In this document: piece after piece, positions 5,278 to 9,822 of the stretch
How the letters are laid out: each line of letters starts with the position of its first letter
Numbering within the stretch: position 1 is the stretch's first letter
Virus record (IMG/VR): IMGVR_UViG_3300023180_000176
Coordinates: 1-36,449 of that record
Direction: 5' to 3' (one strand)
DNA: 36,449 nt
Source of the DNA: a virus
Notes under the pieces: generated by a model
The model's database searches: none
Seen by the model: only the letters and a program-made list of their open reading frames with translations
What the model was told of the DNA's origin: nothing
Translations under genes and position numbers: made by a program

Positions 5278-6317
5278 TATTCTAACTGTAGTGATTCTGA
5301 ATATATAGATCCTATGATAGATTTTAGCACATCTTTATCATCATAGTCTAGTTCATCAACATAGCGTTCAAGGAATGAAAGTGTACCCTCTATTTCTATG
5401 TCACCTTTAGGGTTTACTACATCGTTGGTGTTGTCAATAATCTTTAAGTCATGAACTCCACATTGATATAGACGTTCAATAATATCATCGTAAGCAAAAT
5501 AATTAGTACGTTTTTCTACAATAAGTTTTACAAATTTATTTTGATATTCATTAACATCAATCTTAGTAGGATCATCAATAGTATCGTTATAATAAATTTT
5601 CTCAAACATGTTAATGGGATTCTTAACAAAGTTTAGTTTTAAACTTTCAGTGTCAAACAAATGGAATCCTCTTACATCTCCATAATCATTCCAATACATC
5701 TGGTAAGGATTACCCAGGTAATATACGTTACCATAATTAGAGCGATGGTGGAAGTGCCCAGAAAATACTTTCTTAAATTTTGAAAACACATCTGGACTCA
5801 TACCGTGCTCCATTACATATCCCTTATGTGCTTCAAATCCAGAAATCTCAAGATGACCCATAGCAATCTTTGCTTCAGTATTAGCAATCTCCTCAAAGGT
5901 TTCGGTCTCATTATCGACACAGATCCAGGGAATAAAGCATATTGGTAAATTACCAATCGTAATTGTTATTGGTTTAGTAATGTGAAACACATTTTCATAT
6001 TCACTTAACAGAATATTGACTGCATTCAAATCAAGAGTGTTCTTGTAATAAGAAGTGTGGTTACCTACTACTGTGTATACAGAGATATCTCGTTCAGCAA
6101 GTTTGTCATAATAATTTTTCTTTGCCCAATCGAGTGACCAAAAATCAATCGACTTACGATTGTCAAAGGTATCACCAAGATCAAACACAACAGAGATGTT
6201 GTGCTTATCTAAAGTTGGGAAGAATACTTCGTCATAAAATTCTTTCATGTAGTCATGAAAAATCTGACTACCTTTCCTCATACCAAAATGCTGGTCAGTA
6301 ATAATAGCAACTTTCAT
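5277..6317 (-). CDS. 47: gp47, recombination endonuclease subunit (Mre11/SbcD-like)
   Basis: I place the start at the ATG at 6317, which overlaps the gp55 stop as TGATG. An in-frame TTG at 6320 would add one residue but is unlikely. The 346-residue product (T4 gp47 is 339) has the metallophosphoesterase motifs in order: DQH near residues 8-10, GDTFDNR near 48-54, GNHTS near 85-89, and GHFHH near 187-191. These bind two metal ions for Mre11-type nuclease activity. With gp46 it resects double-strand ends during phage recombination. It sits in a tightly overlapping cluster gp55-gp47-DUF3110-gp46, all probably read from the promoter at 6808-6836. Confidence 0.97.
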   Translation of the reverse strand: MKVAIITDQHFGMRKGSQIFHDYMKEFYDEVFFPTLDKHNISVVFDLGDTFDNRKSIDFWSLDWAKKNYYDKLAERDISVYTVVGNHTSYYKNTLDLNAVNILLSEYENVFHITKPITITIGNLPICFIPWICVDNETETFEEIANTEAKIAMGHLEISGFEAHKGYVMEHGMSPDVFSKFKKVFSGHFHHRSNYGNVYYLGNPYQMYWNDYGDVRGFHLFDTESLKLNFVKNPINMFEKIYYNDTIDDPTKIDVNEYQNKFVKLIVEKRTNYFAYDDIIERLYQCGVHDLKIIDNTNDVVNPKGDIEIEGTLSFLERYVDELDYDDKDVLKSIIGSIYSESLQLE

Positions 6318-6781
6318 CAATACCTCATCTTCTGTTCAAGGGAATTCTTAATCTGCTCGTAGGAAGCTTCACACCCATATTCATCTCCACTGAATACTTC
6401 GGTAAACCCAGATTTTTCAATCATCTTATTCTTAATATCAACTTGCTTTTTCTCTTTTTGTATTCGTCTAAGAAAAGCGTAGTAAATAATTTGAGTAAAA
6501 TAGGCAAATGGATTAGTTGACTTTGCCGGATCAAAATTGTCGATGTAAGTAATACAGTTCTCAATCCCGTCACCGATCATGTCATCCTTAAACATGTAGT
6601 TGACAAAGTTTGGTTTGTAAGAAAGATGCTGAGCAATCTTCAAAAAGCATCCACCAATGTACTCACCAACTGGTGGTTTGTCGTCGCCAGTTTTTTGTGC
6701 TTCATTTACCTTCTTCTTATACTCAACAATTGCTTGTAAGAAGTCTTTGTTGTTTACGTAATGTTCTTTTTGTCTTGACAT
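6317..6781 (-). CDS. 55: gp55, sigma factor for late transcription
   Basis: The 154-residue protein (T4 gp55 is 185) has the gp55 pattern: a central NCITYIDNFDPAKSTNPFAY segment at about 76-95 and FTQIIYYAFLRRIQKEKKQ at about 96-114. These correspond to a sigma region 2-like core that binds the host RNA polymerase coat region and melts the TATAAATA late box. T4 gp55 works with gp33 and the sliding clamp; neither is in this window. The gene is preceded by a host-type sigma70 promoter with a short leader of about 20 bases, fitting early expression by host polymerase before late genes switch on. Its stop overlaps the gp47 start. Confidence 0.95.
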   Translation of the reverse strand: MSRQKEHYVNNKDFLQAIVEYKKKVNEAQKTGDDKPPVGEYIGGCFLKIAQHLSYKPNFVNYMFKDDMIGDGIENCITYIDNFDPAKSTNPFAYFTQIIYYAFLRRIQKEKKQVDIKNKMIEKSGFTEVFSGDEYGCEASYEQIKNSLEQKMRY

Positions 6782-6807: not shown

Positions 6808-6836
6808 ATCATAGCACATATTAAGGGGCTTGACAA
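6808..6836 (-). promoter_or_regulatory. sigma70-type promoter for gp55-gp47-gp46
   Basis: On the minus strand: -35 TTGTCA (6836-6831), 17-base spacer, -10 TATGAT (6813-6808). Predicted start is near 6801, about 20 bases before the gp55 ATG. It matches the host consensus and not the late TATAAATA box. Its -35 overlaps that of an opposite-strand promoter because CTTGACAAG is palindromic except for its centre. Confidence 0.75.
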
Positions 6837-6858
6837 GACCCTTGGATCTGTGTATAAT
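6830..6858 (+). promoter_or_regulatory. Near-consensus divergent sigma70 promoter reading antisense
   Basis: On the plus strand: TTGACA (6830-6835), 17-base spacer, TATAAT (6853-6858), a perfect match to the sigma70 consensus. A transcript would begin near 6865 and run antisense into the 3' end of the Sm-like gene at 6907-7350. No plus-strand gene follows, so any product would be a non-coding or antisense RNA. Activity is predicted only from the sequence. Confidence 0.65.
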
Positions 6859-6874
6859 AACACGGTCAGGGTTC

Positions 6875-6896: not shown

Positions 6897-6903
6897 TTAA
6901 TAC

Positions 6904-6932
6904 ATACTAAGATTCTTTATTATCCTTAGTAT
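6904..6932. other. Inverted repeat spanning the stop codon of the Sm-like gene
   Basis: ATACTAAG (6904-6911) and CTTAGTAT (6925-6932) are perfect 8-base inverted repeats around a 13-base AT-rich loop. The left arm covers the stop codon at 6907-6909. The hairpin could form in the sense mRNA or in the predicted antisense RNA from 6865. No T-run follows on either strand. Confidence 0.5.
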
Positions 6933-7350
6933 CCATTAAGAATATCTCTTCAAGTAACTCTCTAGCATCATCAATAGATGCTATGAGACCCATATCCTTA
7001 TTGAGTTCTACTTTACCTTTAGAGTTTTTATAGTTCTTAGATCTACTCTGTTTCTTTTTCTTTTCATTCATTTCCAGTTTTAATAAACTCTCTTTATAGA
7101 ACTGAACTGGTAAACCTTCTATTTCAGTAATAGTAATAATGTCATTACCTGAAATAAAAAACTCGGTCTCCCTTGCCATCTTCATCCAGTATTTAATTTT
7201 CAATCCCTGAATAACACCAGGGATATCTATTTCTTCGACTTCAATGGGATGAGAAATTAAGAGGTAGTCCTCTACAGGATCTGCCTCTTTTACCAAACAT
7301 AAAATTTCTTCATTTGTTTTTAGTTTTATATTTGCGAAAAATGGTTCCAT
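6907..7350 (-). CDS. Sm/LSm-like conserved cyanophage protein
   Basis: The 147-residue product begins with a short beta-rich domain (residues about 5-80): an IKLKTNEEILCLVKEAD strand pair, an YLLISHPIEVE segment, then a FFISGNDIITITE segment. The pattern is that of an Sm-like beta barrel, and I recall a crystal structure of an Sm-like protein of putative cyanophage origin from ocean metagenomes; I could not check homology here. A Lys-rich stretch (about 96-116) follows and could bind RNA or DNA, then an acidic C-terminal helix. It lies 2 bases after the uvsY-uvsW pair in the same transcription direction. A role in RNA handling, such as an Hfq-like function, is inference. Confidence 0.85.
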   Translation of the reverse strand: MEPFFANIKLKTNEEILCLVKEADPVEDYLLISHPIEVEEIDIPGVIQGLKIKYWMKMARETEFFISGNDIITITEIEGLPVQFYKESLLKLEMNEKKKKQSRSKNYKNSKGKVELNKDMGLIASIDDARELLEEIFLMDTKDNKES

Positions 7351-7352
7351 AC

Positions 7353-8819
7353 TTACGATTTTAGTTTTACATTTATGATCTCGTAATCAAAATTTTCTTG
7401 ATTGTAGATTTTTACCCTTTCAAATAGATGCTTAAGTGTGTAGTTAGGATTGCTACTATCTTTTGAAGTATCATCTGCTATATCATAAAGAACTGCGGCA
7501 TTTTTATTATCGCCTTTTCGTAGTACTCTACCAATTGATTGCAGATTTCTTACCCTTGATTTGGAAGGACTTGCAAAGATAATGTTGTGTAAATTTTTAA
7601 TATTAATTCCAGTAGAGAAAGTTCCGTAACTAGCAATAATAATTGCATTGGATTCTTGTTCGGTAATAGATCGGATTTGCTCCCTATCTTTTACATCAAC
7701 ACCACCGTGTACGAAGAAAACTTTTCTACCCTCTTTAGCACTACTATTTATCAATTCAAAAAGTGGCTCGCCGTGACGCTCCACATAATTAAAAAGAACA
7801 AGAGTATTGCCTGCTAGATCTAAAGAAAGATTTTTGATGAAATTATTTCTCTTGGGATGAGACACAAGATAATCTATCTCTTCATGATAACTATCAAATT
7901 TTACATGATTGTGTCTTAGAGAAATAATTTTAATTTTTAACCTAGACAAATGACCTTGCTTAATAAGATCGTTTGTATTGGTTATTTTTTGATGAGGACC
8001 AAATAGACCTTCTAATACTAATTTATTTGTTTTACTTCCATCCAATGTACCGGTAAACCCTACACGATACTTTGCATGATGAAGCTTAGTTAAAATGTCT
8101 GTTAAAGATTTTGCTTTAAACAGATGTGCTTCGTCTCCAACTACTGCAGTAAAATTTTCAAAAAACTTTCTTTTTTGTTTGTATACTGATTGCCATGTGG
8201 TGATAGTGATGGGTTTGTCGGAAACCTTTTCAAATCCAGCATATACTTTATGACAATGTTCTTCTGCATCCCAACCATACTCAATAAAGTCTTTATACAT
8301 TTGTTCTACAAGAGATGTAGTTGGGACTACGATCATAATCTTTTGTCCAGTTTCTTGAAGAAAACGAACAATAGAATAAATCATAAATGATTTCCCAGAC
8401 CCTGTAGGGGATACGATTAATCTACGCTTTTTTCTAAGTGCTTCGTAAATTGCTTTATATTGATAATCTCTTGCTTTTAATGTTGTAAATTTTTTAACAA
8501 AAGATTTTACACCATCTAAAGATACCAACTCATCTTCTTCATTTGCCATGCCGAAAAATTCATTATCAGCATAGTCATAATGATACCCACGTTCTTGGCA
8601 AAACTGTTCAATATATTCCCTGAGACCAGCATAAATCTCGCCAGTCCCAGGAGAATACAATCTAATTTTTCCATCCCAATACTTGTTTTTGAAGGCAGGC
8701 ATAAACTGTGCGCCTTCAACATCAAATGTAAAGTGGTCAGATAATTCGTATGAAATGTGTGGTAAAGTTTTCAGTTGAAGATAAACTTCATTTTTCTTTC
8801 GGATAATAACATCACTCAT
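7353..8819 (-). CDS. uvsW: UvsW, RNA-DNA and DNA helicase
   Basis: The 488-residue protein (T4 UvsW is 503) is a superfamily 2 helicase. An N-terminal substrate-binding domain (about 1-110) is followed by motif I SPTGSGKS at 137-144, motif II DEAH at 229-232, motif III FTGT at about 255-258 and motif VI QSIGRVLR at 427-434. In T4, UvsW unwinds R-loops and branched recombination intermediates, shutting off origin replication in favour of recombination-dependent replication. It overlaps the end of uvsY by 8 bases. The upstream promoter is probably the late box before gp3. Confidence 0.97.
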   Translation of the reverse strand: MSDVIIRKKNEVYLQLKTLPHISYELSDHFTFDVEGAQFMPAFKNKYWDGKIRLYSPGTGEIYAGLREYIEQFCQERGYHYDYADNEFFGMANEEDELVSLDGVKSFVKKFTTLKARDYQYKAIYEALRKKRRLIVSPTGSGKSFMIYSIVRFLQETGQKIMIVVPTTSLVEQMYKDFIEYGWDAEEHCHKVYAGFEKVSDKPITITTWQSVYKQKRKFFENFTAVVGDEAHLFKAKSLTDILTKLHHAKYRVGFTGTLDGSKTNKLVLEGLFGPHQKITNTNDLIKQGHLSRLKIKIISLRHNHVKFDSYHEEIDYLVSHPKRNNFIKNLSLDLAGNTLVLFNYVERHGEPLFELINSSAKEGRKVFFVHGGVDVKDREQIRSITEQESNAIIIASYGTFSTGINIKNLHNIIFASPSKSRVRNLQSIGRVLRKGDNKNAAVLYDIADDTSKDSSNPNYTLKHLFERVKIYNQENFDYEIINVKLKS

Positions 8820-9225
8820 CTATACCTCTTGAATATCGTAACCAATCAATTGCATTCTTAATTTGGAATGATCGATTGTTAATATTATTTAGAATGTCTT
8901 TTAATGCCCCTTCTATTTTATCGTAAAGATCCAGTACAGCTTGTGCTTTAATTATTTCTGGATCACCTTTAATATAGATCGGTACTTCAGTCTTGATAAT
9001 TTTATCGTCGGGTGCAGTTTCTTCTCTACCCATATAGAAACTGTACTTTTGCAAATACAGTCTATTGTATTCGTATTCTTTTTCTTTCTTTAGAAGTTGT
9101 ATTCTTAAATACTTGTCTAACCATTTGGAATGAAGAAAAGGTATTCTCCTTGCTTCTTCTCCCAAATCATCACCCATAACAGAGTCTTCGTGCCACTCGT
9201 CAATAAATTGTTGATAAAGATTCAT
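8812..9225 (-). CDS. uvsY: UvsY, recombination mediator
   Basis: The product is 137 residues, the same length as T4 UvsY. It shows the conserved helical pattern: WHEDSVMGDDLGEEARRIP in the first 30 residues, HSKWLDKYLR near 32-41, and a C-terminal NRSFQIKNAIDWLRY near 117-131. UvsY loads the UvsX recombinase onto SSB-coated single-stranded DNA. UvsX is not in this window. The start overlaps the gp3 stop as ATGA and the end overlaps uvsW, so the three genes are probably translated from one mRNA. Confidence 0.95.
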   Translation of the reverse strand: MNLYQQFIDEWHEDSVMGDDLGEEARRIPFLHSKWLDKYLRIQLLKKEKEYEYNRLYLQKYSFYMGREETAPDDKIIKTEVPIYIKGDPEIIKAQAVLDLYDKIEGALKDILNNINNRSFQIKNAIDWLRYSRGIDE

Positions 9226-9764
9226 AGAGTTAATTGTTTGTCAAATTTGTCTAATAATTTAAAATAAGTATATCTAAAAGTTGCAGATGCTGTCAAGTAA
9301 TTAATAGTGTCTGTATCTGTAGTAAACCGTAATGAACTTAATCCTACAGGAAAAGCATCAAAAAATTTGACCTTGAACGATGTGTTGTAGTTACTGGTTA
9401 ACACATTCAATACAATATCTACCTGATCTACATTCCAGTTTTCTTGAAATTTTTTATCTACTTGTTTTTGTACAAAATCTCTCCATTGAGTAGATTTTTG
9501 CGGGTAAGTAATACCTACCATCCAATCATGAATTAATGCGTAATTTACACATCCTTCATCTACTAAAAAATTTACAGTCAGATCTTCATAATTTAATTTA
9601 TCTCCGGACAGTTGAATATCATTGTATGGAGTTGCTTGCACTGGATTGTTCATGGAAATACCAGGAATTAGTGCTTCATTACATTGATAGTCAACTTTAT
9701 CGAATCCAGGTAAATCTAACTTGAATCCTGTAGGTGATAAGAAATTAGCGTTGTAGTCTGACAT
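9222..9764 (-). CDS. 3: gp3, tail completion / tail terminator protein
   Basis: The 180-residue protein (T4 gp3 is 176) lies between gp23 and uvsY, the usual place for gp3 in T4-type cyanophages. The sequence has the tail-tube-like alternating strand pattern, including TGFKLDLPGF near 12-21, LTVNFLVDE near 62-70 and a late SLRFTTDT segment. Gp3 caps the end of the tail tube and fixes tail length before head joining. It has its own late promoter, placed right after the gp23 terminator, so it can be expressed independently of capsid protein. The call rests mainly on position and length. Confidence 0.85.
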   Translation of the reverse strand: MSDYNANFLSPTGFKLDLPGFDKVDYQCNEALIPGISMNNPVQATPYNDIQLSGDKLNYEDLTVNFLVDEGCVNYALIHDWMVGITYPQKSTQWRDFVQKQVDKKFQENWNVDQVDIVLNVLTSNYNTSFKVKFFDAFPVGLSSLRFTTDTDTINYLTASATFRYTYFKLLDKFDKQLTL

Positions 9765-9785: not shown

Positions 9786-9793
9786 TATTTATA
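9786..9793 (-). promoter_or_regulatory. Late promoter -10 box for gp3-uvsY-uvsW
   Basis: TATAAATA on the minus strand, exactly the T4 late consensus, 21 bases before the gp3 ATG and directly after the gp23 terminator. It would be read by gp55-programmed host polymerase. Confidence 0.75.
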
Positions 9794-9798
9794 GGCAT

Positions 9799-9822
9799 AA
9801 AAAAAGACCCCCGAAGGGGTCC
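9799..9822 (-). terminator. Strong intrinsic terminator after gp23
   Basis: On the minus strand GACCCC-TTCG-GGGGTC forms a 6-bp GC-rich stem on a stable UUCG tetraloop, followed by seven Ts. It lies 18 bases after the gp23 stop and closes the capsid transcription unit. Confidence 0.93.

Follow-up and report, generated by a model that had tools for sequence, protein, structure and literature searches.

Why should a promoter with perfect consensus boxes stand beside the late sigma-factor gene of a T4-like phage, pointing away from it, with no gene of its own to transcribe? The question is raised by the 36-kb virus record IMGVR_UViG_3300023180_000176, from a T4-like cyanophage (the whole stretch of 36,449 nucleotides is called the window here); its relatives are phages of Synechococcus and Prochlorococcus, with ~75% DNA identity over the alignable parts. 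Marine cyanophages are without T4's motA/asiA and alt/mod genes (PMC2984593, PMC5780444), and for that reason the ordering of early, middle and late transcription in them is unsettled. The reading favoured here, to which the sequence evidence gives roughly an even chance, is that the site is a host-sigma promoter with an operator at its start site: it would send an early antisense RNA across the late unit and, where the promoters overlap, interfere with the gp55 promoter.

The initial annotation had placed two opposed promoters at this site, and both are there in the sequence, within 6808-6858:

6808..6813 (read 6813-6808), minus strand: gp55 promoter -10, TATGAT, preceded directly by a TG (extended -10)
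6831..6836 (read 6836-6831), minus strand: gp55 promoter -35, TTGTCA, which overlaps the -35 of the plus promoter
6830..6835, plus strand: -35 of the plus (antisense) promoter, TTGACA, read from the sequence
6853..6858, plus strand: -10 of the plus promoter, TATAAT, read from the sequence; relatives have TAnAAT-like boxes, the third base being free
6865, plus strand: predicted start of the antisense RNA, a G placed by geometry 7 nt past the -10; G in 93% of clusters
6823..6843, no strand: 21-bp imperfect palindrome AAGGGGCTTGACAAGACCCTT around the shared -35, read directly from the sequence

The plus promoter, TTGACA-17-TATAAT, matches the sigma-70-type hexamers (TTGACA and TATAAT, 16-18 bp apart) at 12/12 positions and is the sole exact match on either strand of the 36 kb. 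Shuffles give an average of 0.02 exact promoters per window, and 12/12 is the best score in 0.03% of shuffled 200-nt upstream regions. The minus promoter, TTGTCA-17-TATGAT, scores 10/12; its predicted start lies at ~6801, and gp55 begins ~20 nt below. Both -35 boxes overlap within CTTGACAAG (6829-6837), which is nested in the palindrome; the -10 boxes are 39 bp apart in the window and the predicted starts ~64 bp apart. The palindrome was rejected as a conserved element in its own right, its outer arms not being kept in relatives, and the region contains no tandem repeats. As the initial annotation had it, no plus-strand gene follows: the ORF list holds no plus-strand ORF of at least 40 aa starting between ~6865 and 7648, and the idea that the plus promoter drives a gene of its own in the window was dropped on that ground. 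What is left is a promoter that faces a gene and lacks an ORF, as expected of a cis-antisense promoter.

Is the plus promoter an accident? Relatives of gp55 were gathered by protein, with four different queries, and supplemented with named phages, so that the motif was not selected for; the set comprises 336 loci, seven of them reached through the motif, in 106 clusters at 90% identity. An exact TTGACA with exactly 17 bp to the -10 is present in 72 of the 106 clusters, always antisense to gp55; with at least 5/6 matches in the -35, 4/6 in the -10 and 17 bp between, the number rises to 90/106. Sequence information is near its maximum at both boxes and near background over most of the spacer. 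The site occurs in phages of Synechococcus, Prochlorococcus and Pelagibacter: named carriers are S-PM2, P-SSM2, Syn1, S-SM2, P-TIM68, ACG-2014j, S-SSM7 and S-RIM2, and in two Pelagibacter phages, HTVC008M and Mosig, the antisense promoter scores 12/12. It is degenerate in ACG-2014f and in the OM43 phage Melnitz-3, and T4 has no comparable antisense promoter. This conservation among gp55 relatives rules out chance as the origin of the plus promoter. The initial annotation had called for just such a comparison, and had counted relatives that keep the minus promoter alone as evidence against its reading; the outcome was the opposite, the plus promoter being conserved with its spacer fixed at 17 bp, and the minus promoter the one that shifts position.

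Conservation extends past the plus -10. A block of typical form AACnCTGTnAGGGTT is conserved on the predicted plus start site; it and its further genomic copies are additions to the initial annotation. In the window it reads:

6859..6873, plus strand: start-site block AACACGGTCAGGGTT, a candidate operator; it is an inverted repeat lying across the predicted start, with 4 of its 5 arm pairs matching in the window

Among the gp55 clusters, conserved sequence runs on beyond the predicted start, typically as AACnCTGTnAGGGTTnA, and then into a purine tract. A T-G step is conserved 6-7 nt past the -10; its fit to an RNA 5' end 5-9 nt below the -10 is suggestive at most. The arms of the block vary yet match: AACTC/GAGTT, AACCT/AGGTT, AACTG/CAGTT, AACAG/CTGTT and AACCG/CGGTT occur, as do GGGTA/TACCC, CCCTA/TAGGG, AGGCA/TGCCT and AACGG/CCGTT, around a centre TG(T). 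In HTVC008M and Mosig the antisense promoter is followed by AGGCA-TG-TGCCT and AACGG-TGT-CCGTT. When the downstream halves were redealt among clusters, the observed arm pairing was reached in none of 2000 permutations; the controls gave 206/2000 for a downstream block and 11/2000 for the spacer, the latter signal probably coming from an interleaved second -35. A first inverted-repeat test, by within-row shuffles, was also positive, but its downstream control was somewhat high as well, and the permutation test is preferred. If G-U pairs are counted too, the margin above the null becomes smaller (0.34 against 0.53); a DNA palindrome accords with this better than an RNA hairpin does. A hairpin at the RNA 5' end was rejected as first choice, since G-U pairs add nothing and the upstream arm precedes the predicted start; a DNA operator is the likelier reading for the same reasons. 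An inverted repeat over a start site, with covarying arms, is what the operator of a dimeric regulator would show, and the block looks like a candidate operator for a phage regulator.

The same module stands elsewhere in these genomes. An IMG/VR scan with the -10/start-site pattern alone, the -35 not being part of the pattern, listed at least 120 matches: 92 of the 120 listed adjoin gp55/Sm-like, all antisense to them; of the other listed matches, 5 precede a small PHROG_718 gene, 3 precede CP12/CpeT and 20 lie elsewhere. Among the 113 distinct sites of the listed matches, 110 have an exact TTGACA 16-18 bp upstream, 102 of them at exactly 17. Searches of whole records found up to three sites per genome, that is, one or two besides the gp55 copy in many genomes; the reversed pattern gave 0 matches in every record searched. 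Wherever a downstream gene is readable the other copies are co-directional with it; such genes include CP12/CpeT, PHROG_718, a resolvase-like ORF and a GIY-YIG-like ORF (the last two named by eye). The variable bases of the gp55 copy recur in 14 of 15 extra copies (P = 0.0001, for pattern-found copies in 11 partly related genomes): spacers differ between copies within genomes while the block variant stays, and S-RIM2 has AACCATG in all three. A blastn search with the intergenic region alone recovered few gp55 sites, because spacers diverge, yet exposed other genomic copies. A motif search over non-cyanophage and divergent records added little beyond extra copies in Melnitz-3 (MZ577098), which has three degenerate ones, at 39,729, 73,657 and 132,105, one of them at gp55. 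In uncultured phages the same promoter module stands before GIY-YIG-like ORFs, as if it were a travelling cassette.

The genes around the site indicate what an antisense RNA would meet:

9805..9822 (read 9822-9805), minus strand: strong intrinsic terminator closing the preceding unit
9786..9793 (read 9793-9786), minus strand: T4-type late promoter box TATAAATA, before tail tube-uvsY-uvsW-Sm-like
9222-9764, minus strand: tail tube gene
8812..9225, minus strand: uvsY, upstream in the late unit with uvsW and the Sm-like gene (PF11056, E = 3.3e-26)
7353..8819, minus strand: uvsW helicase gene, opposite the predicted antisense RNA (UvsW_N PF21241, E = 4.9e-12)
6907..7350, minus strand: Sm-like protein gene, putative antisense RNA target (PF16243, E = 5.2e-5, below Pfam's own cut-off; PHROG_471)
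6317..6781, minus strand: gp55, late sigma factor (PHROG_234, E = 1.7e-65)

The minus-strand order is tail tube, uvsY, uvsW, Sm-like, gp55, gp47, gp46, the last two taken from the annotation of relatives. Since the terminator and late box stand in front of the tail tube gene, a late unit is read as ending with uvsY, uvsW and the Sm-like gene, and the antisense target is bounded by that box and terminator. The Sm-like gene is labelled 'methylamine utilization' in relatives; Pfam suggests an Sm-like (RNA-binding) domain. At its 3' end lies a hairpin, ATACTAAG...CTTAGTAT (6902-6932). The assignment made in the initial annotation, of the minus promoter to gp55 and the plus promoter to an RNA antisense to the Sm-like gene, gains support: the two look like functional opposed promoters. 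uvsW may not be strictly late in the window, because further sigma-70-like promoters stand in the late region, for example at 9296-9267 before uvsY. That one is half of another promoter-like pair in opposed orientation, at 9238-9296, a short way upstream of uvsY: the minus member, TTGACA-18-TATACT (11/12), could serve uvsY-uvsW-Sm-like as a sigma-70-type promoter in addition to the late one; the plus member is TTGTCA-16-TAAAAT (10/12).

The initial annotation had explained the site as a two-way competition switch operating from one shared -35. The layout is real in the window, and competition is plausible there, as overlapping promoters can compete if one is strong (PMC12825309). Of the 98 clusters with the plus promoter, 96 also have a minus promoter scoring 9/12 or better, but the arrangement of the two varies: the -35 is shared in 39 of 106 clusters (154 loci); in 23 each -35 lies inside the other's spacer, as in Syn9 (TTGACAAACTTGTCAA), where the G of CTGT, the predicted start, falls at about 123,698 on the minus strand; in 34 the promoters stand back to back with separate -35s, where sharing is impossible. 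By these counts the shared -35 is one tolerated layout of three and not the rule. Polymerase on one promoter should exclude the other in the shared and interleaved layouts; direct competition cannot be the general function of the pair, because 34 clusters have the promoters back to back. The switch therefore fails as a conserved principle; it also leaves the plus start-site block unexplained, and as an account of the site it is unlikely. Far less credible still is a functionless plus promoter, a by-product of symmetry in the gp55 promoter: spurious bidirectional promoters of that kind are common in bacteria (PMC12825309, PMC10268837), but near-consensus sequence and spacing are kept here across many lineages, even where the two promoters share nothing, and the start-site block with its covariation is independent of any such symmetry.

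Two further readings give the RNA itself the active part, and we consider both quite improbable. The plus RNA might stay hybridised downstream and prime leading-strand synthesis, making the site an R-loop replication origin comparable to T4 oriF/oriG. A promoter without a gene, in two or three copies in many genomes, would suit this, as would the composition of the transcript: the first ~25 nt are purine-rich (0.59 against ~0.38 further on) and the next stretch, +25 to +49, is mildly AT-rich (0.73 against 0.66 overall), T4 origins being a promoter plus an AT-rich element, undone by UvsW (PMC3016281). The AT enrichment is weak, however, the other module copies stand before genes, and the start-site repeat would have no role; an origin placed by GC skew was rejected, the skew having no extremum at gp55 in Syn9. 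Alternatively, the plus RNA might act in trans, as a small RNA whose 5' end is conserved. The bases past the start site are conserved, with the purine tract behind them, and the first 200 nt in the window fold mildly better than expected (z = -2.1); against this, there is little conservation beyond ~22 nt past the -10, a plus-strand terminator within ~900 nt shows no excess over shuffles (8 vs 8 of 104), and Rfam gives nothing at gathering score over the window and only chance matches near the site.

Timed antisense transcription, the favoured reading, is suggested by the combination of a strong host-sigma promoter, a candidate start-site operator and no gene behind. The site would be a conserved divergent promoter node where the late unit (tail tube-uvsY-uvsW-Sm-like) meets the replication/late-sigma unit (gp55-gp47-gp46). 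The gp55 mRNA would come from the minus promoter; unmodified host polymerase of the sigma-70 type would read the plus promoter from the start of infection, and its RNA, running antisense through the Sm-like gene and uvsW, would keep the late unit repressed, either through antisense pairing or through polymerase collision. Where the promoters overlap, as in the window, polymerase on one side would also exclude the other and restrain gp55; in E. coli, strong transcription one way from overlapping promoters can repress the other (PMC12825309). The start-site inverted repeat would be the operator of a dimeric phage-encoded regulator, controlling one or two other promoters as well; as this regulator accumulated, the antisense promoter would be shut, and gp55 and the late unit released. 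Early silencing of the uvsW unit would be sensible, because T4 UvsW is made only late and dismantles origin R-loops (PMC3016281).

Known systems offer partial likenesses. In the bidirectional promoters of E. coli (Warman et al., PMC12825309), opposed sigma-70 promoters likewise overlap, and polymerase on one excludes the other there; those share a -10, have starts usually 18 bp apart (PMC10268837) and have low basal activity, whereas in the phage pair it is the -35s that overlap, the predicted starts lie ~64 bp from each other, and the plus promoter is conserved and close to consensus. CfrI of S-PM2 (Millard et al. 2010, described in PMC2984593) is also an antisense RNA in a T4-like cyanophage; it spans a homing endonuclease gene and psbA, while the RNA predicted here lies elsewhere, at gp55/Sm-like, and its site is family-wide, S-PM2 itself included. 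T4 oriF/oriG with their UvsW control (PMC3016281) resemble the site in that RNA rather than protein may matter, in proximity to uvsW and in several copies per genome; their promoters are MotA-dependent middle ones, accompanied by an AT-rich element, and no such element stands out at the gp55 site.

A wider scenario is possible, though we would lean against it: an early regulon common to marine T4-like phages, in which a dimeric phage regulator, rapidly changing in specificity, would bind a palindrome at the start sites of two or three strong promoters, the most conserved being the antisense promoter, by which the late sigma factor and the UvsW unit would be timed. The promoter and repeat are kept in phages of cyanobacteria and SAR11, and OM43 phages have them in degenerate form; among lytic phages, this would be a rare antisense promoter conserved throughout a family. 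Being near-invariant, the promoter and start-site repeat beside the late sigma gene would supply DNA bait for the missing regulator, with a short list of promoters. Doron et al. (2016) reportedly found a novel early-gene regulatory element in Syn9. It is possibly the same as the module, of which Syn9 has a copy at 52.8 kb in a stretch of small ORFs. At 168,329 in Syn9, after psbD, a promoter-like site runs directly into a terminator-like hairpin (TATAATAAGGGGGTCAAACGACCCTCTTTTT).
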